Under the pieces are notes generated by a model. The model saw nothing but the letters and a program-made list of their open reading frames with translations. It made no database searches and was not told the origin of the DNA. Position numbers and translations under genes: made by a program. Of a stretch of 35,866 nucleotides of DNA, positions 1-35,866 are shown in pieces (within the stretch, counting starts at the first letter, position 1; each line of letters starts with the position of its first letter). The DNA is from a virus. The stretch is from IMG/VR virus record IMGVR_UViG_3300035670_000717, positions 1 to 35,866 of that record; one strand, given 5' to 3'.

Positions 1-127
1 GCGCAGGAACGTGTACGCACGCAGGCGACGGGGCGTGGGACTACGCGCCCACGCAGGCGGAGACCGATGGTGCGCACTGTCGGTACACCTGTACACTGGA
101 CGGGGCGATCACGCAGACGGTGCAGGT
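1..127. repeat. Left copy of 127-bp terminal repeat
   Basis: Identical, base for base, to 35740-35866. A coding frame continues across the joint. 127 is a common largest k-mer of short-read assemblers, so this is most likely the overlap of a circular assembly and not a physical terminal repeat. Confidence 0.95.
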
Positions 128-395
128 ATATACTGATACTGCGGGTTCCGGCGGTGGGACTATCGAGTGGACGTATGAGGTCACGGACAGCGTTTCCGGG
201 TTGCCGATCAATGACGTGCTGGTACAGTTGCGACATCCTGATTCCGGGGCTGTGCGGTTTCAGGCGACGACCAACGCCCTCGGGATTGCGACGTTTCTGT
301 TACAGGCCGCAGACATGGGGACGTATACAGCGGTCAGCATACCGGGCGGCAATTATGAGGGTGCATCCGAGGAGGTGACGATCAGTGCCGAATGA
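1..395 (+). CDS. Ig-like virion surface protein, 3' part (gene continues from 35616)
   Basis: This is the downstream part of a gene that starts at 35616 and crosses the assembly joint. The complete product is 172 residues. The second half (about residues 75-172) has the alternating hydrophobic pattern of a beta-sandwich, with an Ig-like or transthyretin-like signature: a designed-looking DSVSGLPINDVLVQL stretch followed by TNALGIATFLL and a GTYTAVSIPGGNY segment, as in carboxypeptidase-regulatory-like domains found on phage surfaces. The first half has cysteines near C46, C68 and C72 that could pair. It ends 11 nt inside the head-tail adaptor gene and closes the fibre/decoration block. A role as capsid decoration or adhesin is inferred from fold and position only. 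A GTG at 120 could be mistaken for its start if the circle is not closed. Confidence 0.75.
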   Translation, partial: AGTCTHAGDGAWDYAPTQAETDGAHCRYTCTLDGAITQTVQVYTDTAGSGGGTIEWTYEVTDSVSGLPINDVLVQLRHPDSGAVRFQATTNALGIATFLLQAADMGTYTAVSIPGGNYEGASEEVTISAE

Positions 396-831
396 TGGTA
401 TTACACTGACCCCGGTAACGACCGGGACTCTATGGCTGACCACGGGTGAGGCGGACACGTATTTCTCCACCCGTCTCGGTGCGTCCACGTATTGGACTGC
501 CGGGACAGACAAAACGGCGGCACTCACGACGGCGCAAAACGACTTGGTCAATTGCGGGCTGTTCGTGTGGCCCGAGGACGAGAATGGCGACGTAGACCCG
601 ACCACGGCGATGCAGAACGCGGTGTGTGAGCAGGCGTTGTTTCGCCTTCGGGATGTGGCCGGGGTTGATGCGCGTGCCGACCTTCAGGGGCAGGGTGTGA
701 CCCGCGCAAGCATTGTCGGGGAGGACTATCGGGGTGCGGGGGGTATCGTGATATGCGCTCAGGCTCAGGCGCTTTTGGTCGGACTTCGGGATTCGTCAGC
801 GGGCTATGGCTCGTTCGACGTGACCCGGTAA
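385..831 (+). CDS. Head-tail connector (adaptor), DnaT-like gp6 type
   Basis: A 148-residue protein starting at GTG 385, with a strong GAGGAGGTG ribosome-binding site at 369-377. The N-terminal pattern LTTGEADTYFSTRLG, followed by an alanine-rich helical segment (TAALTTAQNDL) and a C-terminal YGSFDVTR, is typical of the short helical proteins that ring the portal in siphoviruses. Databases often label the family putative DnaT-like ssDNA-binding protein, although the role is structural. It would bind the portal and form the first disk of the connector. It overlaps the preceding Ig-like gene by 11 nt and is followed after 11 nt by a membrane protein gene. Confidence 0.7.
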   Translation: MPNDGITLTPVTTGTLWLTTGEADTYFSTRLGASTYWTAGTDKTAALTTAQNDLVNCGLFVWPEDENGDVDPTTAMQNAVCEQALFRLRDVAGVDARADLQGQGVTRASIVGEDYRGAGGIVICAQAQALLVGLRDSSAGYGSFDVTR

Positions 832-9091: not shown

Positions 9092-10677
9092 TGGCCTATT
9101 CCTGGACGACACTCAATAGACTGGTAGATGTGACCGTTGCGACCGAGTTCTACAACGAGGTCAAGCGCAAGTGGTTGCGGTCTGGCATTACAGACTACTA
9201 CACGGGCACGGCGTTCAACGAATCGTATCTGTCCGGGCTGGATTCGAGCAGACCGAGGGACTACGCCTATTCGGTGTGGACGTATTGCGAACCGTTCCTG
9301 TTGAAGATGATCGGCTTTGAGGTTTGGGATACCGTCACGTATCCGACGACGTTCCGGGACTCCGACTGGACGGCCTACACGCCATTGGGAGAACCTCCGA
9401 CCCTGACAACGAACCCGGCAAGCTGGCAGGCGTGGGTGACGTTCTGGCGGGCAGAACTCGAAAATCTGAAGTGGGTTGAGAATGTCGCGCCAAGCAATAA
9501 TCGCAGCAACATCTATGACGATTGGATGTCTACCACGTCCCCGAGCCTCATCTGGAATTCCAATCAATGGAGTATAACGCCGGATTTCCCGTCCACACCT
9601 GAAGGCAGCAATAGTTCCACCTATGAGGTCGGGATACAGTTTGGCGTGAAATTCGATACATACGCATGGCAAGACTACCTTACGGGAAGTGTGTATTACT
9701 CGTTCTCCTCAGATTCATTTGGGCTTGATGAGGTCACTGATGAGGATACCGAATTAGGGGCGTTTCAACTTTCCGGAGCATTCGATCCGGACACATTTGA
9801 ATTTGATTCGTCATTGAAATATGGGTTTACATTGAATGTCTATAAGCAGGAGATACAGACATGGGGACTTGATGCGGTAGTTTTTGAGACCACTGGCGTT
9901 CCGGGCGATGTGACGATTGACTATGAATGGAACTCCTCGGGGAACATTACGACCCCAACGCTCGGCAGTGGTAACGGGACAGCAATAGGGGCGTTGAGTC
10001 TTGATGAACGCAGCTTATCCTCGGGGGGTCTTTTGTGGGCGACTACTGGGGGGGCGGACACCGGGTCAGAAACGGGAACATGGGAAAGCGCAATCCCTTA
10101 CGATTCCTCAAAGAAATGGGACGTTACCGAATCCGGCGGCACTATATCCGCGAGACTTGAGTTTCTGTACTCGGTTGGTGTCGGCTCCGGATCGCCATCG
10201 TTTACGGCGACGATGACTGGGACTGGAACCGTAAACCTACAGGTATACAACTGGGGAAATACGTCATGGGAAAACACAGGGCGGTCATTGTCAAGTTCTG
10301 GGTGGTCTGGTACTGCCTCGTCTGTGACCGATGCTAATGTAGGTGGCGGGTCAAATGAGGGGGTGCTGAAGTACCGACTATATGGGACGAGTTTGGGGAC
10401 AAGTGCGAAGGTTTCCATTACTCAGGCTGGCGTTTCTGTCAAGTCTGCGTTGCCCGTTTCTTTCAGCACACTATCCCAGTCCACGATGGTTCTCGGAATG
10501 CATATGAAGTATTACATGAGCGAGGACGCACGCCAACCCGGAAGCTGGGCCGACCCGTTCATATATCAGGATGAGTACGAGTACCTGCTCTGGGGGCGAA
10601 TCGGAATAACGGGGGCGGGTGCGACAGATCCAATATGGGTACTTAGAATGAGGTACAGCATTGATGACCCTTCGTGA
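9091..10677 (+). CDS. Tail tip fibre / candidate receptor-binding protein
   Basis: 528 residues from ATG 9091, chosen because it overlaps the hub stop as TAATG; an in-frame GTG at 9040 would read further into the hub gene. The first 170 residues are aromatic-rich and mixed; residues 170-480 are low in charge and rich in serine, threonine, glycine and tyrosine with beta-strand periodicity, as in fibre stalks and jelly-roll tips. From about 9600 to 10600 the DNA is less GC-rich than the neighbours, often seen in exchanged host-range genes. I do not recognise a family; the call rests on position between hub and lysis genes and on composition. Confidence 0.6.
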   Translation: MAYSWTTLNRLVDVTVATEFYNEVKRKWLRSGITDYYTGTAFNESYLSGLDSSRPRDYAYSVWTYCEPFLLKMIGFEVWDTVTYPTTFRDSDWTAYTPLGEPPTLTTNPASWQAWVTFWRAELENLKWVENVAPSNNRSNIYDDWMSTTSPSLIWNSNQWSITPDFPSTPEGSNSSTYEVGIQFGVKFDTYAWQDYLTGSVYYSFSSDSFGLDEVTDEDTELGAFQLSGAFDPDTFEFDSSLKYGFTLNVYKQEIQTWGLDAVVFETTGVPGDVTIDYEWNSSGNITTPTLGSGNGTAIGALSLDERSLSSGGLLWATTGGADTGSETGTWESAIPYDSSKKWDVTESGGTISARLEFLYSVGVGSGSPSFTATMTGTGTVNLQVYNWGNTSWENTGRSLSSSGWSGTASSVTDANVGGGSNEGVLKYRLYGTSLGTSAKVSITQAGVSVKSALPVSFSTLSQSTMVLGMHMKYYMSEDARQPGSWADPFIYQDEYEYLLWGRIGITGAGATDPIWVLRMRYSIDDPS

Positions 10678-10686
10678 GGAGAACGA

Positions 10687-11628
10687 ATGAACCTGAGTGG
10701 GTTACAACGGACGCTTGTGCGGCAGATCGTGAACATTTTCGAGACGGGGAAACCCGAGGGGGAGTATGGCCGGGTAACGGTTATTCCGGGGGACACGGGC
10801 CACCTGACCTACGGGAGGTCGCAGACCACGTTGACATCGGGTGGGCTATACCTTCTGATCAGGGCGTACTGCGAGACTGACGGGGGTAAGTACCGGGGGC
10901 AGCTACTCGGGTATCTGGGGCGGCTTCGGGCACGGGATACCGCCCTCGACATAGACGCGCACCTACATTACCTTCTTCGTGAGGCCGGGGCTGACCCGGT
11001 TATGAGGATGGTGCAGGATAGTTGGTTTGACCGTGCGTACCTGGGGCCAGCGGAACAGGCGTGTGATCGCCGTGGGTTCGCTGAGGCGTTGTCCCTGGCT
11101 GTGGTCTACGATTCCCATGTCCACGGATCGTGGGCGCTGATATCAGCCCGGACAGACCGGGAAATCGGCGCGGATGCAGCGGAGATACTCTGGGTGGAGA
11201 GATACCTCCGGGTGCGGCGGAAATGGATTGAGACGCACCGCAGGCGCGACCTGAGGCCGACGGTATACCGCATGACGGCCCTCATGCAGCTCGTCGCAGA
11301 GAGACGGTGGAACCTCGAACCTCCCCTGCGCGTGCGCGGGTGGGTGCTGGGAGACCACCACGTGGGGGCCGGGGATGGTTCTGCGGTCTCGGTACGGGCG
11401 GATGAAGGCGACCCGCCATTGCTGTTGCTTCGGCGGTCCTGCCTGAGTGGGCGTTGGGTGCGGCGGCTTCAGGCGGTGCTGGGTATCGATACAGACGGTG
11501 TTTATGGCCCGCAAACGGAGCGGGCTGTCGTGCAATACCAGAAACGCCACGGACTACGGGAAGACGGAATAGTCGGCCCGGTCACGTGGTCTCACCTACT
11601 ACAGGAGGATAAGGATGGCAACGTATAG
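10687..11628 (+). CDS. Endolysin: chitosanase-type (GH46-like) glycosidase with peptidoglycan-binding domain
   Basis: 313 residues, with GAGGAG upstream of ATG 10687. The N-terminal domain begins like GH46 and related lysozyme-superfamily enzymes: an IFETG motif with E19 as likely general acid, then VIPGDTGHLTYGRSQTTL with D36 as likely base, spaced as in chitosanases. The C-terminal 55 residues (about 254-307) are a PG_binding_1 domain with LQAVLGIDTDGVYGPQTERAV and the DGIVGPVTWSHL close. The enzyme should cut glycan strands of the host wall at lysis. It overlaps the holin gene by 14 nt. The substrate may be peptidoglycan and not chitosan, as in other phage members of this group. Confidence 0.85.
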   Translation: MNLSGLQRTLVRQIVNIFETGKPEGEYGRVTVIPGDTGHLTYGRSQTTLTSGGLYLLIRAYCETDGGKYRGQLLGYLGRLRARDTALDIDAHLHYLLREAGADPVMRMVQDSWFDRAYLGPAEQACDRRGFAEALSLAVVYDSHVHGSWALISARTDREIGADAAEILWVERYLRVRRKWIETHRRRDLRPTVYRMTALMQLVAERRWNLEPPLRVRGWVLGDHHVGAGDGSAVSVRADEGDPPLLLLRRSCLSGRWVRRLQAVLGIDTDGVYGPQTERAVVQYQKRHGLREDGIVGPVTWSHLLQEDKDGNV

Positions 11629-21188: not shown

Positions 21189-21342
21189 ACACAAGGAGAG
21201 TACTGTTGCGCGGCGTGCCGAGATGGCTAATATCCTGCGGCTGTGGGCACAGCGGCAGCACCCCCCGACCGACCTGTCTAAGGTGGTCGGCGCGATGCCA
21301 GACCTGCCGGACGGGTTCGGAGAGGAGGAAGCGGAATGCTGA
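21181..21342 (+). CDS. Small hypothetical protein (53 residues)
   Basis: From ATG 21181 in the third copy of the 18-base start module to TGA 21340-21342. The product begins MSEHKESTVARRAEMANIL and has a short helix plus an acidic proline-rich tail. The stop overlaps the next gene, whose ribosome-binding site (GAGGAGG) lies in its last codons. Function unknown; supported by site strength and tight packing. Confidence 0.55.
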   Translation: MSEHKESTVARRAEMANILRLWAQRQHPPTDLSKVVGAMPDLPDGFGEEEAEC

Positions 21343-21872
21343 AGGTGATTGATGAGTATGGGCACTGCAACGCGATGCTGGGGTTGTCACTCAGCAAGAA
21401 CGGCGACCTGCAACGTATGCCGCACATCGCAAAAGAACTGGCATGCATGGACAACGGCCACAACCAGTTTTTGCAACACATTTGCGTGTGGATTGATGTT
21501 CGCGCCAGCCGTGGCTGGTGGATTGAGGCCGCGAAATATCACTGGTTGGAGACACAGTCGGAAAGCACGACCCACTCTAAGTGGCCCAAAATATTCACCC
21601 GCCCCATGTTCTTCAACGGCCACCTGATCCCGAACCATGTATTCGAGATCTTGAACGACTTGCAGCGGGGCGATCTGCCCGACAGGCACGAGCGCATCAT
21701 GGCAGTACTCCCGGACAGCTATCTGCAACGGCGGATCTGCACAACGAACTACCAGCAGATCCGCACAATCGTCGCGCAACGGGCCAAGCACAAGCGCGAG
21801 GAATGGCAGACGTTCTGCCGGGAAATCCTCGCGCAGTTGGAACACCCGGAATACCTGCGCCGGAAACAATAG
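21336..21872 (+). CDS. Conserved phage protein of unknown function (RASRGWW / SESTTH type)
   Basis: 178 residues from ATG 21336, seven bases after GAGGAGG. It has several strongly motif-like segments: GHNQFLQHICVWIDVRASRGWWIEAAKYHW, split by SESTTHSKW, then VLPDSYLQRR, NYQQIRTIVAQRAKHKREEW and a final LEHPEYLRR. This plan (D-x-R/T-A-x3-WW-x-E, S-x-STMH-like motif, then YxxLxxIxxQRxxH) is known to me from a widespread family of uncharacterised phage early proteins. The histidine and acidic residues may form a metal or nucleotide site. The function is not known. Confidence 0.65.
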   Translation: MLKVIDEYGHCNAMLGLSLSKNGDLQRMPHIAKELACMDNGHNQFLQHICVWIDVRASRGWWIEAAKYHWLETQSESTTHSKWPKIFTRPMFFNGHLIPNHVFEILNDLQRGDLPDRHERIMAVLPDSYLQRRICTTNYQQIRTIVAQRAKHKREEWQTFCREILAQLEHPEYLRRKQ

Positions 21873-21881
21873 CCCACACCG

Positions 21882-21934
21882 CTCCGGGGTGGTGGCCCGT
21901 CGGCCCATTATGCCGCTGGTCTGCCGCCCCGGAG
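21882..21934 (+). promoter_or_regulatory. Inverted repeat in the gap before the helicase gene
   Basis: CTCCGGGG (21882-21889) and CCCCGGAG (21927-21934), 37-nt loop. There is no T run. It may be an RNA structure acting on the helicase start 20 bases downstream. Confidence 0.45.
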
Positions 21935-21954
21935 GGATAACACGAAAGAGGGAG

Positions 21955-23709
21955 ATGCAAGTGAGAACATTCAATGCGAAACAACGTCAAGCGGCAGAGC
22001 TTGTTCTTGGCAGAACCGGGGATGCTGACCACATTCAACCGTACTCTAAGGGAGGGGAAACAACCGTGGAGAACTGCCAGATCCTAAGCCCGACGGCCAA
22101 CAGGAAGAAGGGGGCGTTTCAATTCAAGCCACGTCTATGGCAAGAAGAGTTTCTTGAAGCGTGGAAACGTAGGACACAAGACACTCCGTTCATGTTGATC
22201 GCCATACCTGGCGGCGGGAAAACAATGGCCGCGCTTGAGGCGTGTAGGCAATGGATGGCGGCTGGGGCAGACAGGCGAGTGATAGTCGTTGTTCCGACAG
22301 ACAACCTCCGCGAGCAATGGAAGGACGAGGCAGAGAAATTCGGGATCTCCCTTCAGAGCAAGGAGTTCGGGACGGACTTCAAGCACGGGTTTCAGGGTGG
22401 TGTGGCAACCTACAATCTGGTGGCGAGTCAACCGTTGGTGTTTCGGAAGCTGTGTTCTGTTGCGCCAACGATGGTCATCTTTGACGAAATTCACCATTGC
22501 GGTGATGATGCTGCTTTCGGGCGTGGGGTAACGACCGCATTTGAGTTGGCTAAAGAGCGTCTACTGATGTCTGGCACTCCATGGAAGTCAGATGGAAGCG
22601 CAATCCCGTATGTCCGCTATGACGGAAACGGGTACGCTGTGGGTGACTTCTTCTACGATTACCCTCGGGCGCTTACTGAGGACGTTGTCCGGTATCTGGT
22701 CTTCGACCACTCCAAAGGCAGCATCACGAACGATTTCACCGGGGAAACGGCAGAAGTCAACAAAGAGATCACTGACGAAGAGGCGCAACAACGTCTGTAC
22801 AGGATTCTCAATGGCAATGGGGAGTACGTGAGAGAAACGATAACCCTCGCACACAAGCGGCTGACGGAATGTCGCCGCACGATGCCTGATGCAGCTGCCC
22901 TCGCGGCGTGCATCGACCAGAACCACGCGAGAATCGTTGCGGGGGTAATCAAGGAGGTTACCGGGTGTGAACCAAGCGTCATTGTCAGTGACAGCGAGTT
23001 CGAGAACGACAACGTCCGGGCCTTCAGAAACAGCAAAAAGGAGTGGCTGGTAGCGGTTCGAAAGGTGAGCGAAGGGACAGACATCAAGCGGCTTCAGGTT
23101 CTATGCTACCTGACGAACACGACCACTGAATTGTTCTTCCGGCAACTGATAGGTCGGGTATCGCGTATTCGGGGCGGAGAGGATTTCGAGGCATATGTTT
23201 TCCTCCCGGCAGACCCTCGCCTGATTCGGTGCGCAGAGAACATCGAGAACGCCCAGGTGCGTGCATTGCAGGAGGAGGGCGAACGGGAAAGCAGGGAGGT
23301 TGAGCGGGCTGAACGTCAGCTTGAGATCGGTTCCTACAGCACCACTCATGAAGGGACAGACGTTGCGTTCATTGGAAGTGAGCGGGTATCACTCAATGAA
23401 TACAGCCGCATCGAGCAGATAGCAGGGGCTGTTTCCCTCCCGATGCAGAAGGTTCTGCAAGTGCTTCAGATGACGGCGTTGTCTCCTCCTTCTGGCCGCG
23501 AAGAGACTCCTGTAGTTCAATGCAAAGAGGATAGGATGACCGAACTTCGACGAAGGTGCAACAAGCTGGCAGCTAGTCTCGCCCATAGGCTCGGGGTTGA
23601 GTTCAGGGAAGTACACATGTGGTACAAGCCACAATCCGCCATGTCCGAGGAAGAACTGCAATCCAAGCACAAAGACCTATTGGGGAGAATCAGAGAATGC
23701 AAGAGCTGA
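21955..23709 (+). CDS. SF2 (DEAD/DEAH-type) helicase with degenerate HNH domain at the N-terminus
   Basis: 584 residues from ATG 21955; GTG 21961 is an alternative with better spacing to GAGGGAG. Residues 22-53 keep the HNH outline (DADHIQPYSKGG, then N40 and N49-RKKG), but both zinc C-x2-C pairs seen in related HNH-helicase proteins are missing. The helicase core follows: Walker A AIPGGGKT (83-90), DEIH (177-180), SGTPW (206-210), and motif VI QLIGRVSRIR near residue 394. This is the SSL2/COG1061 group, found in phages and mobile elements. It may act in replication, recombination or counter-defence. A coiled segment follows near residue 440. Confidence 0.85.
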   Translation: MQVRTFNAKQRQAAELVLGRTGDADHIQPYSKGGETTVENCQILSPTANRKKGAFQFKPRLWQEEFLEAWKRRTQDTPFMLIAIPGGGKTMAALEACRQWMAAGADRRVIVVVPTDNLREQWKDEAEKFGISLQSKEFGTDFKHGFQGGVATYNLVASQPLVFRKLCSVAPTMVIFDEIHHCGDDAAFGRGVTTAFELAKERLLMSGTPWKSDGSAIPYVRYDGNGYAVGDFFYDYPRALTEDVVRYLVFDHSKGSITNDFTGETAEVNKEITDEEAQQRLYRILNGNGEYVRETITLAHKRLTECRRTMPDAAALAACIDQNHARIVAGVIKEVTGCEPSVIVSDSEFENDNVRAFRNSKKEWLVAVRKVSEGTDIKRLQVLCYLTNTTTELFFRQLIGRVSRIRGGEDFEAYVFLPADPRLIRCAENIENAQVRALQEEGERESREVERAERQLEIGSYSTTHEGTDVAFIGSERVSLNEYSRIEQIAGAVSLPMQKVLQVLQMTALSPPSGREETPVVQCKEDRMTELRRRCNKLAASLAHRLGVEFREVHMWYKPQSAMSEEELQSKHKDLLGRIRECKS

Positions 23710-29716: not shown

Positions 29717-30700
29717 ATGGCAACTACACTCCAAAGCAACGTGGTCATTTACCACGACGAATACCAGGCGGGCATGTGGGAGGAACTCTCCCAGAATGCC
29801 AACGCCTTCAACGGCGCGTCCGCGAACGCGATCCAGCTGATCGGCAAGGAGCAGCTTGGCGCGTATTCAAAGGCCGCTTTCTGGAAGACCATCAGTACGC
29901 TGGTGGCCCGCCGGGACATCACCAGCACCAGTGCGGCGACCGCCCTCGCGGCCACGCAGAACGATGAGATCAGCGTGAAAGTCCACCGCAAGATTGGCCC
30001 GGTAGACGTGGCGTTTGACGCGCTGCGGGCCATCGGCGTTGGCGACCGTGAATTCTCCTTCCAGCTTGGTCAGCATGTTGCAAAGGCCAAGCTCGAGAAT
30101 ATGCTGAACACGGCACTCATTGCCGCTGAAGCTGCCATCGAGGGCAACAGCGCGATGAATAAGGACGTGACGGGCGAGACCACCAAGACGATCACGACCG
30201 ACTACCTCGTGCAGACCCTCGCGAAGATGGGCGACATGGGGGACAAGGTCGTAGCGTGGGTGATGCATTCCAAGCCGTATTACAACCTCGTCAGCGAGCA
30301 AATCACGGCTAAGATCGTGAACGTTGCTGACAAGGTTGTCTATGGCGGAAGCCCCGCCACCCTTGGGCGACCTGTCATAGTGACCGATGCTTCGGCGTTG
30401 ACCGACGCGAACGGAAGCGCGACCGACACGTACAACGTGCTTGGGCTTGTCTCCGGCGCGGTAACCGTGGTCGAGTCCGAGCAGGAGCAGATCGTTACCC
30501 AGACCGTTACCGGGCTGGAGAACCTCGTGCTTCGCTTGCAGGGCGAATTTGCGATCAACGTTGGCGTGTTGGGCTTCGAATGGGATATCGCGAACGGCGG
30601 GGCGACCCCGACCGACGCGACCCTCGGCACAACCACCAATTGGGATCAGGTCGCGACCAGCGACAAACACACGGCGGGCGTAAGGCTCAAGTGTCAGTAA
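29717..30700 (+). CDS. Major capsid protein
   Basis: 327 residues, preceded by GAGGAG. The pattern (helical N-terminal arm, KAAFWKTISTLVARRDITS, VKVHRKIGPVDVAFDALRAIG, GQHVAKAKLENMLNTALIAAEAAI, then GRPVIVTDASAL and a final beta region with IVTQTVTGLENLVLRLQGEFAINVGVLGFEWD in substance) fits a coat protein with HK97-type fold. It directly follows the scaffold gene. No separate head protease is visible, so maturation may rely on scaffold exit alone. Strong RNA hairpins follow its stop. Confidence 0.9.
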   Translation: MATTLQSNVVIYHDEYQAGMWEELSQNANAFNGASANAIQLIGKEQLGAYSKAAFWKTISTLVARRDITSTSAATALAATQNDEISVKVHRKIGPVDVAFDALRAIGVGDREFSFQLGQHVAKAKLENMLNTALIAAEAAIEGNSAMNKDVTGETTKTITTDYLVQTLAKMGDMGDKVVAWVMHSKPYYNLVSEQITAKIVNVADKVVYGGSPATLGRPVIVTDASALTDANGSATDTYNVLGLVSGAVTVVESEQEQIVTQTVTGLENLVLRLQGEFAINVGVLGFEWDIANGGATPTDATLGTTTNWDQVATSDKHTAGVRLKCQ

Positions 30701-30784: not shown

Positions 30785-31660
30785 ATGCAAGCGTTCATCT
30801 ATGAGAAACTCGCCAACCACTGCATCCCGGAACTCGTTGCTGGGTTGCAGGCCATCGGGTACTCGACCCGGCTGAAAAACCCCTTCGTGTTCGACGGGCC
30901 GGAACCGAACGTGGATTTGGTGGTCGTGCATGGCATTCGGCCACGGACAGGCGGGGCAATCCTCCGGGCGTACCAGGAGCGTGGTGTGCCCGTGCAGGTA
31001 CTTGAGCAGGGGTACTGGCGCAGGGCCGAGGGATATCGGCAGTATGGCGAGGCCGGGATAAATGTCATCCCGAACGGGCCATGCCCTATCGACCGGGCGC
31101 AAACCCAGGGGCTGATTGCCGGGGATCAGGTGGTCAGGCAGGACGGGTACGTGCTGGCAATCGGGCAGGTTCGCGGGGACATGCAGATTCCCGAGGACTG
31201 CCGGGACAGCGTCAACGAGTGGATACGGGAACGGGCCTCAGAGGTGGCGGAGCGATACGGGTGCCGATGGGTCTACAGACCGCACCCAATGGTGGAAGCC
31301 TCCTCGCAGACACTCGCTGACGCACTCGCCGGTGCGCGGGCCGTAGTTACTTGCACAAGCACGACGGCGTATGAGGCTATGGTCGGCGGGATTCCGGTGG
31401 TCTGTCATGCCGACGCGGTCTATACCTCGGTATGTCGGGAGGACATTACCCGGCTTGAGGTGCAGGGATTTTTGAACCGGGTAGCCTATGGGCAATGGCT
31501 CCCGGACGAGTTCGCACGGGGGTTGCCGTGGGGTCTACACACTCCTGAGACACGCAACACCAGCAGCACCACCGCAGAGGGCGCAACGCCTTCCCCCTCG
31601 GTGGCCCCCGTCGAAGAAATGCCCAAGCGGAAACGCGGGAGACCCCGCAAGAGTGGGTGA
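30785..31660 (+). CDS. Glycosyltransferase-like protein (KpsS/capsule type) with AT-hook tail
   Basis: 291 residues. The fold is of the GT-B type. It has strand-helix units starting at MQAFIYEKLANHCIPELVAGLQ, then DLVVVHGIRPRTGG, VQVLEQGYWRR, CRWVYRPHP (about 160-167) and ARAVVTCTSTTAYEAMVGGIPVVCHADAV, and the phage-specific ending RLEVQGFLNRVAYGQWLPDEFARGLPW. The HP and S/T-x-EA-x2-G-x-P motifs resemble capsule (Kdo) transferases. The last 11 residues (281-291, KRKRGRPRKSG) are a canonical AT-hook. It would modify virion proteins or, with the DNA-binding tail, DNA. It lies behind the coat gene. Confidence 0.7.
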   Translation: MQAFIYEKLANHCIPELVAGLQAIGYSTRLKNPFVFDGPEPNVDLVVVHGIRPRTGGAILRAYQERGVPVQVLEQGYWRRAEGYRQYGEAGINVIPNGPCPIDRAQTQGLIAGDQVVRQDGYVLAIGQVRGDMQIPEDCRDSVNEWIRERASEVAERYGCRWVYRPHPMVEASSQTLADALAGARAVVTCTSTTAYEAMVGGIPVVCHADAVYTSVCREDITRLEVQGFLNRVAYGQWLPDEFARGLPWGLHTPETRNTSSTTAEGATPSPSVAPVEEMPKRKRGRPRKSG

Positions 31661-31925
31661 CACGGTAGACATCACACCGGACGGGCCGCAGCACGACTGG
31701 GATGAGGACGACATAGAGAGTCGGTTGCGTGCAGCGTGGGACGAGGTGGCGGTGGCGCTGGCGGTGCGTGACCCGGTGGCACTCGACGGCGCGTGCTGCA
31801 TGGTGCGTCGGCTGGCGTACATGGCGCGGCGGGAGAGTCCGCCAGTGCGGGTAGAGCTGCGGTGCGGCGGTCGCGGCAGGCCGCTGTACGTACCGGACGA
31901 GACTGAGGACGACGGAGAGGTATAA
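31653..31925 (+). CDS. Small hypothetical head-region protein
   Basis: 90 residues from GTG 31653, overlapping the previous stop by 8 nt. The sequence is acidic at both ends (DWDEDDIESRLRAAWDEVAVAL and ETEDDGEV) with a basic middle (YMARRESPPVRVELRCGGRGR). No family recognised. The frame is open further upstream within the glycosyltransferase gene, but that part looks like a shadow. Position suggests a minor head or assembly protein. Confidence 0.6.
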   Translation: MGDTVDITPDGPQHDWDEDDIESRLRAAWDEVAVALAVRDPVALDGACCMVRRLAYMARRESPPVRVELRCGGRGRPLYVPDETEDDGEV

Positions 31926-31965
31926 CCGTCTCGCGCAGAGGCGCTGAGGCGCGGAGGAATAGAGA

Positions 31966-32286
31966 ATGGCAGACGTGAGTAACGCGGAAGCAATCAGGTT
32001 CGTCAACGAGCAGATTAGGCCACTCGCCGAGTCGGTGCGTGCGCTGAAGGCGCGTATCGACGCGGCGACAGTGAAGTGGTTCGGTGGCATCAACACGACC
32101 ATCGGGACGAGCGCGGATGACGCGATTGCGGACGGACGCGAGGCCGAGGGTGTGTCGCGACTGACCGCGGCAGACGTGACCGGGCTGATGACGCAGTTAC
32201 TCGCGATACAGGCAACGCTCGACGGCGCGGGTGTGGCCGGAGTCGTCGAGAAACCGTGCGTGCGGACGCTAGAGGTCTCGCTGTAA
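31966..32286 (+). CDS. Conserved virion-associated protein
   Basis: 106 residues, preceded by GGAGGAATAGAG. Helical: a long amphipathic first helix (NAEAIRFVNEQIRPLAESVRALKARIDAA) and later a TAADVTGLMTQLLAIQATLDGAGV helix. Similar small proteins stand between coat and fibre genes in many phages; the function is unknown. It is two bases before the beta-helix gene, so the two may be co-produced and interact, for instance as an anchor for the beta-helix protein. Confidence 0.65.
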   Translation: MADVSNAEAIRFVNEQIRPLAESVRALKARIDAATVKWFGGINTTIGTSADDAIADGREAEGVSRLTAADVTGLMTQLLAIQATLDGAGVAGVVEKPCVRTLEVSL

Positions 32287-32287
32287 C

Positions 32288-33364
32288 ATGACTGTGTTCT
32301 ACGTCGATGGCGACAACGGCAACGACTCGAACGATGGGTCTACCGAGGCACTCGCGAAGGCCACTATACAGGCAGCAGTGAATGCAGTCACGGCAGACCG
32401 CGATGTGGTGTACATCCAGAATAACGGATCGACGGTGTACACCGAGCAGGTGACGTTGCCAGCATATGGTGTTTATCTCATAGGGTATGGCACCACGATT
32501 GGCGATAATGTGCGTGCCGTCATAGATGGGGAAGACACGCGCACGTACTGCATTTATCAGTCCACTAGCGATGAACTGTTTCTCTACAACATGGAGATCC
32601 GAAACGCGACATCACACGGCTTGTCTACAGTAGGTGCTGGTAAGTTATTTAACGTACACGCACATGATAACGGGGGGGATGGGCACCGTGTTACCACGGG
32701 CAACGAACATCAGGCGTGGTTTTTCTGCACGTTCAACGACAATGGTGGCAACGGGCTATACAACCTAAACGGAAACGCAATTCCTTCGCCAGTATGGTAT
32801 TGCGATTTTTACAATAACACCGGACATGGGGTGTTTGGTTACATTCTTATCGCGTATCGTTGTCGTTATGTGAAAAATAATACTGGTGCATACATTATTT
32901 CTGGAAACGGATTCCAGATTCAGTGTATCTTTGACAGTAATGCGCAACACGGGGCATACGGGTATTACACGCATTACTGCGACTGTATCTCCAGCAACAA
33001 CGGCTCGTATGGCTATGCAACATGGGCTACTCCATCATATGTACATCTCGTAAATTGTAACGATTATCAAAATGTCAGCGGACGTAATAATCGGTCTGTA
33101 GCAGAAGACTTAGACATTAACCCCGTCTCGACTAACCCAGACTTCATTGCTCCGTACTCAGTCACGAATACGGATCTCGCCGATCTCGATTACCATGTGG
33201 GCGCGTCGAGTGACTGCGCCGATTATGCCTCATATATCGGTTGCCTGAACACGAATGCGGCGGCAAAGACCATGCACGACCTTGGCGCACAGGACAGGCA
33301 AGATCCAACAGTTGGGGTCAACAGATCCCTTGGTCGCTATAACAGGTTCGGAGTATTCCCATGA
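32288..33364 (+). CDS. Right-handed parallel beta-helix protein (tailspike/depolymerase-like)
   Basis: 358 residues. After a DUF1565-like start (FYVDGDNGNDSNDGSTEALAKATIQAAVNAV), the sequence has about eight coils of about 22-24 residues with a pattern like x-C-x-F-x2-N-x-G-x-G-x-Y; nearly every coil has a cysteine at the same place (WFFCTFNDNGGNG, VWYCDFYNNTGHG, YRCRYVKNNTGAY). This is the pectate-lyase-like fold used by phage spikes to bind or cut polysaccharide. The DNA (32400-33100) is much less GC-rich than its neighbours, which suggests horizontal acquisition. Catalytic residues cannot be assigned. Confidence 0.82.
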   Translation: MTVFYVDGDNGNDSNDGSTEALAKATIQAAVNAVTADRDVVYIQNNGSTVYTEQVTLPAYGVYLIGYGTTIGDNVRAVIDGEDTRTYCIYQSTSDELFLYNMEIRNATSHGLSTVGAGKLFNVHAHDNGGDGHRVTTGNEHQAWFFCTFNDNGGNGLYNLNGNAIPSPVWYCDFYNNTGHGVFGYILIAYRCRYVKNNTGAYIISGNGFQIQCIFDSNAQHGAYGYYTHYCDCISSNNGSYGYATWATPSYVHLVNCNDYQNVSGRNNRSVAEDLDINPVSTNPDFIAPYSVTNTDLADLDYHVGASSDCADYASYIGCLNTNAAAKTMHDLGAQDRQDPTVGVNRSLGRYNRFGVFP

Positions 33365-33750
33365 GTACCAGACGTGTGGTTAACTACGATACAGGCAAGA
33401 CGCTGAAGGCGATCATCACGCGCCTGACCGATGGGTACGTCTGGAACACCAGCGGCACCCCGGCGTTCGAGACGTACAATGCGTCGAACATCGCCAACTA
33501 TGGCGTTGCTCTTACTGAGCAGGGCGCATCCGGGAGGTACGTCCTGACCATGCCCTCACTCGCGGCAGGGGTCTACGACCTTGATGTGCGGGTGCTGACC
33601 GGGGCCAGTCTGGCGCAGTCTGATACCCACGTGGCTGGGGGCGTGGTCGAGTGGGGTGGCAGCAAATTCGGGGCGAAACTTGGGCAATGGAAACACACGC
33701 TGGACAGCGGTTCGTCTGGCGTTGACACGGTAACAGTAAGCGAGGTATAG
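33361..33750 (+). CDS. Small beta-rich virion protein
   Basis: 129 residues, coupled to the beta-helix gene by ATGA. The sequence TLKAIITRLTDGYVWNTSG, then GRYVLTMPSLAAGVYDLDVRVL is like an Ig or fibronectin-like beta sandwich with a final GSSGVDTVTVSEV strand. Similar modules are found next to phage head fibres. It may join fibre components. No enzyme motif. Confidence 0.6.
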   Translation: MSTRRVVNYDTGKTLKAIITRLTDGYVWNTSGTPAFETYNASNIANYGVALTEQGASGRYVLTMPSLAAGVYDLDVRVLTGASLAQSDTHVAGGVVEWGGSKFGAKLGQWKHTLDSGSSGVDTVTVSEV

Positions 33751-33752
33751 AC

Positions 33753-34088
33753 ATGGCATTTTCAACGACAGCGAAAAACAGCATGCTGGGGGCGATCACC
33801 CCGGACCAGATGCAACTTCATTCCGGCGATCCCGGTGCGGCGGGTACAAGCAACGCAGTAGGCAGCAAGACTGCGTGCAGCTTTGCTGCGGCTTCCAGTG
33901 GTTCTCGTGCCCTGTCCGCGCAGGTCAACTTCACTGGCTTGGGTGCGTCTCAGGCGGTGAGTTACTTCTCTGTCTGGGGTAGTTCCGGTACGGTATTCCT
34001 CGGCAGTGGCACGCTGACCGGAGACAGTGCTGCTAATGCGTCTGGCGAGTATTCCGTCACGACCAGCACTACCCTCAGCCTGAGTTAA
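33753..34088 (+). CDS. Fibre-associated protein (AKNSMLGAI / HSGDPGAAG family)
   Basis: 111 residues, with GCGAGG upstream. The start MAFSTTAKNSMLGAI, followed by MQLHSGDPGAAGTSN, is typical of a widespread phage protein annotated as tail fibre or appendage component. The rest is serine-glycine-rich beta structure (YFSVWGSSGTVFLGSGTLTGD). In this genome it lies on the capsid side of the gene order, so a capsid fibre is possible as well. Confidence 0.7.
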   Translation: MAFSTTAKNSMLGAITPDQMQLHSGDPGAAGTSNAVGSKTACSFAAASSGSRALSAQVNFTGLGASQAVSYFSVWGSSGTVFLGSGTLTGDSAANASGEYSVTTSTTLSLS

Positions 34089-34092
34089 GCAT

Positions 34093-35619
34093 GTGGCTAC
34101 CGAGACCTTCACTACCAGCGGCACTTGGTCAAAACCTGCGGGCGTAACGTCTGTTACGGTCGAGTGCTGGGGTGCTGGAGGTGCTGGTGGTTCAGGCAGC
34201 AACAACGGTGGAACGGTTTTTGGCGGTGGCGGTGGCGCGGGTGGAAACTACGCCCGTTCCACCCTGACCTACAACAGTGCGTCCCAGAACATCAGCTACA
34301 CGGTTGGTGCATCCCAGAACACTGGTGGTGGCGGGGCCACGTATTGGAACACCAATCAAGTTTTTGCAAACGGTGGTGCTGCTGGAAACAATGCTTCTGG
34401 TGTCGGTTCCGGTGTTGGTGGCACGGCATTTTTATCCTCTGATATCGGAACGACTAAATATGCAGGTGGATCTGGAGCGTCTGGAGTCACCAATAGTTAC
34501 GGTGGAGGTGGGGGTGGTGGAGCAGGGTCATCTGGCGCGGGTGGTGCAGCCTCTGGCAGCACAGCGGGTACAGGTGGCTCTGGTGGCGGCGGAAACGGTG
34601 GCGCGGGAAGTGTTACGCCAAACACTTCCGGGGGTAATGGGACTGCCCCCGGTGGGGCAGGTGGTGGCGGGTATCGCACGTCCTCCCGATCGTATGGTGC
34701 GGCTGGGAAAATAATCATCACCTATGAGACTGCATCGATTCCTACTGGAAGCGGGTCGGTGTCCGGGACAGGCACCCTGTCTGCCACGGGCGACATGCCC
34801 CCGCAGGATGGATATGGGTCCGTCTCAGGCACTGGGTCGCTGTCGGCGACGGGCGCGTCTATCCACTATGGCAGTGGGGATGCGTCTACCTCCGGGGTGC
34901 TGTCGGCTACGGGCGATATGCCTCCGCTCGATGGATACGGAGACATCTCCGGGACAGGCGCACTCGCGGCGACGGGCGATGCGCCGACGATCATGGCGGC
35001 GTATCCCAAGACACGTGCGAACGCCTACCCACACACCTATGGGCGCACAACGTCTCAGGCGGCGTCTCCGACTGGGTATGGGTCTGTCTCGGCGACCGGG
35101 GCAGTTGCTGGTGTCGGACGGGCAACCAAGTCCGCTTATGGGTCCATCCTTGCGGCATCTGGGTTGGTCGCCCTGGGTGACGCCCCACCCAACACGGGCA
35201 GTGGGACTGTCTCGGCCACCGGGACACTGTCGGCAACGGGGAAGGCGTCCCATTATGGGACTGGGTCCGTTTCCGCCACCGGGACACTGAGTGCGACGGG
35301 TGTCGCCCCCGCTATAGGTGCTTCCGAGGGCTATGGGTCCACCTCGGCCACAGGAACCCTTGCGGCCATGGGCCTGTCTGTACGGTACGGGGTCGGTAGC
35401 GTTGCGTCTATCGGGGCGCTGTCGGCCACAGGAGATATGCCGCCGCTCGACGGGTATGGGGCGGTCTCTGGTGCGGGTGTGCTGTCGGCGACAGGAGTCC
35501 ACCTCCCAAAGGGCACGGGCACACTCACCTCTATGGGCAGCATGGAGGGGGTTGGGCAGACCCCGCTTATTGTCGCTTTCCGGCCCGTATGGGCACAACA
35601 TGCTACGGTGGTATTATGA
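34093..35619 (+). CDS. Glycine-rich adhesin with about 12 GxGSVSxTGxLSATG repeats
   Basis: 508 residues from GTG 34093. The first 215 residues are a Gly_rich-type domain: TETFTTSGTWSKPAGVTSV, then polyglycine segments alternating with serine and alanine (e.g. GGGGGGGAGSSGAGG), like polyproline-II adhesins in phage fibre tips. From about residue 219, about twelve copies of GYGSVSGTGSLSATG-like units follow every 18-26 residues, three with a DMPPxDG linker. Unit four has a 30-residue insertion (near residues 297-330). A repetitive stalk with adhesive head is inferred. It overlaps the Ig-like gene by 4 nt. Confidence 0.78.
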   Translation: MATETFTTSGTWSKPAGVTSVTVECWGAGGAGGSGSNNGGTVFGGGGGAGGNYARSTLTYNSASQNISYTVGASQNTGGGGATYWNTNQVFANGGAAGNNASGVGSGVGGTAFLSSDIGTTKYAGGSGASGVTNSYGGGGGGGAGSSGAGGAASGSTAGTGGSGGGGNGGAGSVTPNTSGGNGTAPGGAGGGGYRTSSRSYGAAGKIIITYETASIPTGSGSVSGTGTLSATGDMPPQDGYGSVSGTGSLSATGASIHYGSGDASTSGVLSATGDMPPLDGYGDISGTGALAATGDAPTIMAAYPKTRANAYPHTYGRTTSQAASPTGYGSVSATGAVAGVGRATKSAYGSILAASGLVALGDAPPNTGSGTVSATGTLSATGKASHYGTGSVSATGTLSATGVAPAIGASEGYGSTSATGTLAAMGLSVRYGVGSVASIGALSATGDMPPLDGYGAVSGAGVLSATGVHLPKGTGTLTSMGSMEGVGQTPLIVAFRPVWAQHATVVL

Positions 35620-35866
35620 TCCGAAACTATGCAGGACAGACGGTCAGCTTCCAGATGCTCAGCGTGACGACGGGTGCTGCCATGACCACAGGCACCCCCA
35701 CTGTGATGGTCTCCTTGGACAGGGCAACTCCCACTGTGGGCGCAGGAACGTGTACGCACGCAGGCGACGGGGCGTGGGACTACGCGCCCACGCAGGCGGA
35801 GACCGATGGTGCGCACTGTCGGTACACCTGTACACTGGACGGGGCGATCACGCAGACGGTGCAGGT
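35616..35866 (+). CDS. Ig-like virion surface protein, 5' part (continues at 1-395)
   Basis: The gene starts at ATG 35616, overlapping the adhesin stop as ATGA, and is cut by the end of the window. After the joint it continues in frame through the start of the window to 395, giving 172 residues in all. The N-terminal part is MIRNYAGQTVSFQML and a beta-rich segment with TPTVMVSLDRATPTVGAG. Fold and neighbours suggest a decoration or adhesin component of the virion. Bases 35740-35866 are the duplicated overlap and should be counted once. Confidence 0.85.
   Translation, partial: MIRNYAGQTVSFQMLSVTTGAAMTTGTPTVMVSLDRATPTVGAGTCTHAGDGAWDYAPTQAETDGAHCRYTCTLDGAITQTVQ
35740..35866. repeat. Right copy of 127-bp terminal repeat
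   Basis: Exact copy of bases 1-127. Joining the two copies restores an open 172-codon gene (35616 to 395), which shows that the molecule is circular or circularly permuted with a unique length of 35,739 bp. Confidence 0.95.

Follow-up and report, generated by a model that had tools for sequence, protein, structure and literature searches.

A coat-linked Kdo-type glycosyltransferase and an inserted, probable appendage cassette between the coat and adaptor genes of a phage genome

We analysed the interval between the major coat gene and the head-tail adaptor gene in IMG/VR virus record IMGVR_UViG_3300035670_000717, the whole 35,866 bases of which are referred to here as the window. The two ends of this record overlap by 127 base pairs (bp), and the genome is therefore complete and either circular or terminally redundant, with a length of 35,739 bp. 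On the circular sequence the interval extends from the coat stop codon at 30700, over the contig ends, to the adaptor at 385, a total of 5,423 bp. It is bounded by a Gp13-like major coat protein of 327 amino acids (aa) (29717..30700; PF20036, E 7.9e-92; phrog_247, E 6e-49) and by the adaptor (385..831), which was placed using a profile grown from the window adaptor itself that also recovered proteins annotated as head-tail adaptor Ad1 in three other loci (L002, L003 and L004). All genes of the interval, like the coat and adaptor genes, are on the + strand, arranged like an operon with intergenic gaps of -31 to +84 bp. An earlier note, made from the sequence without database searches, had described a block of about five kilobases (30785 to 35619) as a decoration module of capsid fibres between the coat and the connectors. 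Every open reading frame (ORF) it named was present on the + strand, and its coat and connector assignments held (connectors phrog_3881 at 2056 and phrog_2595 at 2762, with the gene at 385 in the adaptor family). The block was real but larger than described, since the gene for its immunoglobulin (Ig)-like protein spans the contig junction as far as 395, mostly outside those coordinates, and a small ORF at 31653..31925 had been missed.

The gene directly after the coat (30785..31660) encodes a protein of 291 aa that we classify, by its predicted fold and active-site motifs, as a KpsC-like retaining beta-Kdo-type (Kdo, 3-deoxy-D-manno-oct-2-ulosonic acid) glycosyltransferase. The earlier call of a glycosyltransferase was borne out by a match to PF05159 above the cut-off (E 1.3e-7), and KpsC was the top match in a profile search of PDB sequences (E 4.7e-7). 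An AlphaFold model made from 18 family members had a pLDDT (predicted local distance difference test) of 86.5, and its ranking against solved structures placed KpsC first (Z 14.5), followed by WbbB (13.7) and KrkA (11.0), with the remaining, non-Kdo structures at 7.3 or less. The two-domain fold could be aligned to KpsC over 225 residues with a root-mean-square deviation of 3.8, and comprised an N-terminal domain (approximately residues 1-95), a donor domain (approximately 110-255) and a basic, AT-hook-like tail (KRKRGRPRK). Published hallmarks of retaining beta-Kdo transferases are a QxxxD motif, which supplies the nucleophile, and an HP motif, which binds cytidine monophosphate (CMP) (PMC10148158, PMC12887879). 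Both were observed in the window protein, as Q128VRGD132 and RPH167P168, and it is therefore likely, judging from these motifs, to be catalytically competent. Within the 18-member alignment the Q was invariant, and the HP and the D were found in most members, not all. The profile alignment also placed Arg52 and Glu74 on KpsC Arg45 and the general base Glu66, a pairing that is less certain because it was obtained by counting, on the assumption that chain numbering is offset by one. The two-domain fold and both motifs are common to KpsC (GT107), WbbB (GT99), KrkA (GT140) and the window transferase, whereas the latter is a phage gene positioned right after a coat, is shorter, carries the basic tail and is less than 20% identical to these enzymes. 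A tblastn search of 50,697 phage records with the window transferase returned one distant match, near the terminase of a metagenomic podovirus, and a search of these records with the transferase of a related locus (L050) returned none.

Relatives of the locus were collected with a coat profile from a five-member alignment, which gave 80 viral-contig loci and 9 bacterial-genome loci; single-protein scans of viral contigs with the coat, the transferase and the protein encoded at 33753 had found no close relatives. Merging coats at least 90% identical left 71 groups, of which 68 had 500 bp or more after the coat, and group counts given below refer to these 68. In 21 of the 68 groups the gene immediately 3' of the coat encoded a complete transferase of the window enzyme's family, as it did in 4 of the 9 bacterial-genome loci, including Bowmanella and Pseudomonas composti (a prophage-like element of strain LY1, L095); none of the bacterial loci had been used for profiles, although the Pseudomonas coat is similar to a coat that the set already contained. 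Coat and transferase distances in the trees were correlated in two runs with slightly different sets (Spearman 0.58 and 0.71, permutation p <= 0.001), while weaker correlations with the coat were measured in the transferase-bearing set for the scaffold (0.45), portal (0.24) and adaptor (0.03). Although the adaptor is a short protein with a noisy tree, the coat-adaptor correlation over all loci was still 0.40, so the method can pick up a signal for this gene. We interpret the stronger coat-transferase correlation as inheritance of the two genes together, the boundary of recombination lying after the transferase. The transferase thus belongs to the coat locus and not to the fibre set in which the earlier note had counted it; it adjoins the coat in many relatives that have no fibre block, including the closest one.

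The association with the coat extended to the N-terminal domain of the transferase (about 90 aa), which adjoined the coat in 43 of the 68 groups, alone or fused to other enzymes. It was observed without a catalytic domain directly after the coat in L011/L012 (112 aa), L016 (164 aa) and L009 (94 aa), fused to an MptE-like/nucleotide-sugar-transferase region in L054, and within a protein of 1,052 aa in L010. This last protein (L010:11013-14168) also lies directly after its coat and matched the coat-adjacent domain at its N-terminus, and a Pfam search with it gave no match. A profile built from transferase N-domains only matched non-seed proteins in L011 (3e-11), L049 (1.7e-8), L013 (7e-7), L010 (4e-6), L016 (5e-5) and L054 (3e-4), and all six of these listed matches were the first gene after a coat. 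In profile-profile comparison the transferase N-domains scored 95.5 against the non-seed coat-adjacent set, with 60 column shuffles reaching at most 14.9. A small stand-alone family scored 31.8 against the transferase N-domains and 40.4 against the coat-adjacent set (shuffle maxima 12.1 and 10.3). Predicted strands of the L057 stand-alone protein (3-8, 28-33, 46-49, 69-71) and of the transferase N-domain (2-6, 27-31, 45-49, 70-75), together with predicted helices (12-24 and 55-64; 14-23 and 56-65), suggest the same element order and spacing in both. This link to the stand-alone family is the weaker one, because the fold is of the common Rossmann type and the seeds were chosen by position. Basic, AT-hook-like C-terminal tails occurred in both kinds of protein (window, PKRKRGRPRKSG; L057, PKRKPGRPRKDAA; L013, PPRRGRPPKSTQ). 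Among coat-adjacent proteins with no such tail (L047, L055, L060, L080), some appeared by eye to end in a helical motif of SAP/HeH type, a tail that might likewise bind nucleic acid.

After the transferase, the newly added small acidic ORF (31653..31925) encodes about 90 aa from a GTG start chosen by start-codon scan, the start used for the intergenic gaps above; an alternative ATG at 31488 would overlap the transferase by 173 bp. Family searches with this ORF gave no match. The following two-gene unit comprises a small protein of 106 aa (31966..32286), with a 53% identical homologue in L054, and a putative Cys-laddered right-handed beta-helix protein of 358 aa (32288..33364). The pair occurred, again side by side and in the same order, in the corresponding interval after the L054 coat (53% and 35% identity), although the two coats are only 41% identical. 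The Cys ladder proposed in the earlier note was observed, with cysteines at 147, 172, 192, 213, 231/233 and 257 and a spacing of about 20-25 residues; since searches of families and PDB sequences returned no significant match, the beta-helix fold rests on this sequence pattern. The GC content of this gene (49%) was the lowest of the block, compared with a genome mean of 59%, as would be expected of a recent acquisition. Neither the beta-helix protein nor the N-terminal domain of the glycine-rich protein described below had a tblastn match in the phage records.

A second small protein, beta-rich and 129 aa long (33361..33750), lies directly upstream of a neck-whisker-type protein of 111 aa (33753..34088; phrog_240, E 3.4e-18; PDB 9c39, E 1.5e-8). 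The latter, homologous over most of its length to the 110-aa gp31 of Shigella phage Sf14, was 38% identical to it over 71 aa (BLASTP E 4e-14), and also gave a weak, below cut-off match to the GP4 fibre I family (PF23140, E 2.4e-4). Sf14 gp31 is annotated in GenBank as a head protein (FDI99_gp126) and was resolved within two sets of neck whiskers (PMC11821841), PDB 9C39 being the neck map. Sf14 differs in being a myovirus with its whisker genes between portal and protease, where the window gene lies in the coat-adaptor interval. The 129-aa protein, which occupies the directly upstream position of the partner whisker protein gp30 of Sf14, was considered as its homologue, but sequence comparison showed no similarity to gp30, and family searches with it gave no significant match. 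The next gene (34093..35619) encodes the glycine-rich, adhesin-like protein of 508 aa, which as the earlier note stated is repetitive, with 123 Gly and approximately 12 C-terminal repeats of about 20 aa; its N-terminus matched PF21722 (E 3.3e-5), and the protein also hit phrog_863 (E 2.6e-6). The Ig-like protein, an ORF of 181 aa on the circular sequence, has its 5' part at 35589..35866 and its 3' part at 1..395 (bases 1-127 repeat the last 127 bases of the window), abuts the adaptor at 385 and matched PF24025 just under the cut-off (E 5.7e-6). PDB look-ups for the 129-aa, glycine-rich and Ig-like proteins were empty or not significant.

The genes after the transferase form an inserted cassette, because the closest relative (L093, coat 58% identical) has the order coat, transferase, 82-aa ORF, adaptor, MuF without the fibre block. 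The coat-adaptor gap, measurable in 54 groups with the profile grown from the window adaptor, had a median of 860 bp, with no room for a gene in 7 groups and at least 2 kb in 8. The window interval was the third largest of 55 such intervals, exceeded only by those of L073 (8,136 bp) and L083 (5,858 bp). Fibre-like proteins were observed in this interval in L083, L073, L030, L029 and L086, including an L083 protein with an N-terminal domain like that of the window Ig-like protein and a second one whose GTGALSATG-type repeats by eye resemble the glycine-rich protein. A profile of the Ig-like N-domain matched coat-adaptor intervals only, which is weak evidence because its seeds came from those intervals and most loci stop short of the tail-fibre region. 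Other intervals contained a sulfotransferase (PF13469) with further enzymes (L008) or genes that read as methyltransferase-like (L067, L045, L021). Several large proteins in the L073 interval look beta-rich, and the one searched had no family match.

The surrounding late genes follow the order TerL (25764), portal (27490), scaffold (28957) and coat, then, past the block, adaptor, minor head protein (1196) and connectors. Downstream of these, a gene for an Ig-domain protein (3175) occupies the place where the tail tube is usually encoded; next come the tape measure (4363), Dit (6473), a tail-hub-like protein (7280) and a fibre-like ORF ending at 10677. The endolysin that follows (10687-11628) contained a domain of glycosyl hydrolase family 46, a chitosanase family (E 2.5e-11), and a peptidoglycan-binding domain (E 9e-13). 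Elsewhere, the product of 21889-23709 resembles a helicase (ResIII, E 6e-16; DEAD; Helicase_C) and carries an N-terminal HNH endonuclease motif, and the protein at 21336-21872 had a weak, below cut-off ThyX-like match (PF02511, E 0.0015).

The earlier note had recognised a real surface module, placed between coat and connectors and containing fibre-like and Ig-like proteins and a glycosyltransferase. In our description it has two components, a Kdo-type transferase linked to the coat and an inserted cassette for a probable appendage, and it is the neck rather than the shell that has a structural precedent. The decoration-module reading of the note is partly supported. We consider the chances about even that the interval is a virion-surface locus with a fixed part, the coat-linked transferase, and a variable part, the cassette. 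The fixed part would be the gene directly 3' of the coat, inherited with it, and in this phage the most likely role of the KpsC-like transferase is to attach a Kdo-like sugar to the coat or to a different surface protein of the virion, with the CMP-activated donor supplied by a presumed Gram-negative host. The variable part would comprise the small protein with the putative beta-helix, the small protein with the whisker-type protein, the glycine-rich adhesin-like protein and the Ig-like protein, probably building one appendage at the head-tail neck and less likely on the shell. Such an appendage may touch polysaccharide of the host or the environment ahead of engagement by the tail tip; we infer that its proteins could bind glycans or mucus and that proteins of the block may themselves be glycosylated.

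Several observations weigh against this account. The N-domain was not detected beside the coat in 25 of the 68 groups, and the known KpsC-type enzymes, to our knowledge, use saccharide or glycolipid acceptors, not proteins. The AT-hook-like tail of the transferase would equally fit a nucleic-acid substrate. The glycine-rich protein matches tail families (phrog_863 and phrog_2683), and a homologue of the whisker-type protein in Mycobacterium phage Mendokysei sits after minor tail genes; these modules are therefore reused elsewhere on virions.

A reading in which the cassette forms capsid-shell fibres, as the earlier note held, and the transferase decorates the fibres or the shell appears rather unlikely. 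Hoc (T4), pb10 (T5) and gp8.5 (phi29) are capsid surface proteins, some Ig-like, that aid adhesion (PMC7602432), and the position beside the coat and the Ig-like and adhesin-like content of the cassette resemble them, but unlike in these proteins no capsid-binding domain was recognised in the window proteins by family search. Neck whiskers are better supported, because gp31, the one solved homologue of any cassette protein, is a neck whisker. Also against the shell-fibre reading, the transferase is present without the cassette in many relatives. In Ralstonia phage GP4, fibril 8JOU_g is described as linking an adhesin to the collar (PMC13243795); the weak PF23140 match noted above is to the GP4 fibre I (gp80). 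In LSH1, genes gp34-36 bring together proteins of comparable kinds (lyase-like beta-helix, fibril-like, Ig-like; PMC13243795), although that three-gene module lies after the lysis genes and the window cassette between coat and adaptor.

It is unlikely that the transferase instead modifies the host envelope (lipopolysaccharide or capsule), for example in superinfection exclusion, with its position at the coat reflecting late expression only. KpsC and WbbB do act on the capsule linker and O-antigen (PMC12887879), but co-inheritance with the coat and a stand-alone N-domain in the same position would not be expected. Quite improbable is a displaced set of tail-tip fibre or receptor-binding genes, as the tail-family matches and the Mendokysei gene order might suggest, since the phage already encodes, downstream of its tape measure, a Dit together with tail-hub-like and fibre-like ORFs, and relatives put fibre-like genes in the same coat-adaptor interval. 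Glycosylation of phage DNA, which would suit the AT-hook-like tail, the weak ThyX-like protein and the known glycosyltransferases of DNA-hypermodifying phages (cited in PMC12619734), is very improbable, as the transferase is closest to Kdo transferases and not to DNA glucosyltransferases, and no convincing base-modification gene was found among the subset of the genome's genes scanned.

Beyond the virion-surface locus itself, we tentatively raise the possibility that the Rossmann-type domain after the coat is a general capsid-docking module, with enzyme fusions leading to shell glycosylation with Kdo-like sugars and the interval collecting exchangeable neck and head appendages. If so, the domain alone would be a small capsid-associated protein, and its fusion to a KpsC-like, MptE/sugar-transferase-like or other enzyme would equip the capsid with glycan chemistry.

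Most of what is known of glycosylated phage virions comes from a few mycobacteriophages. Che8 and Rita, as cited in PMC11256854 and PMC12619734, encode their own glycosyltransferases, as the window phage does, and carry glycans on the major capsid protein. In Maravista, a Che8 relative, the transferases are near the 3' genome end and not at the coat gene, and no Kdo-type enzyme is reported there. The coat-linked transferase occurs in numerous uncultured phages as well as in some contigs from bacterial genomes, and with a Kdo-type transferase inherited alongside the coat, glycosylated virions would characterise an entire capsid lineage. The coat-adaptor interval is a place to seek new surface appendages, relevant to adsorption and host range.

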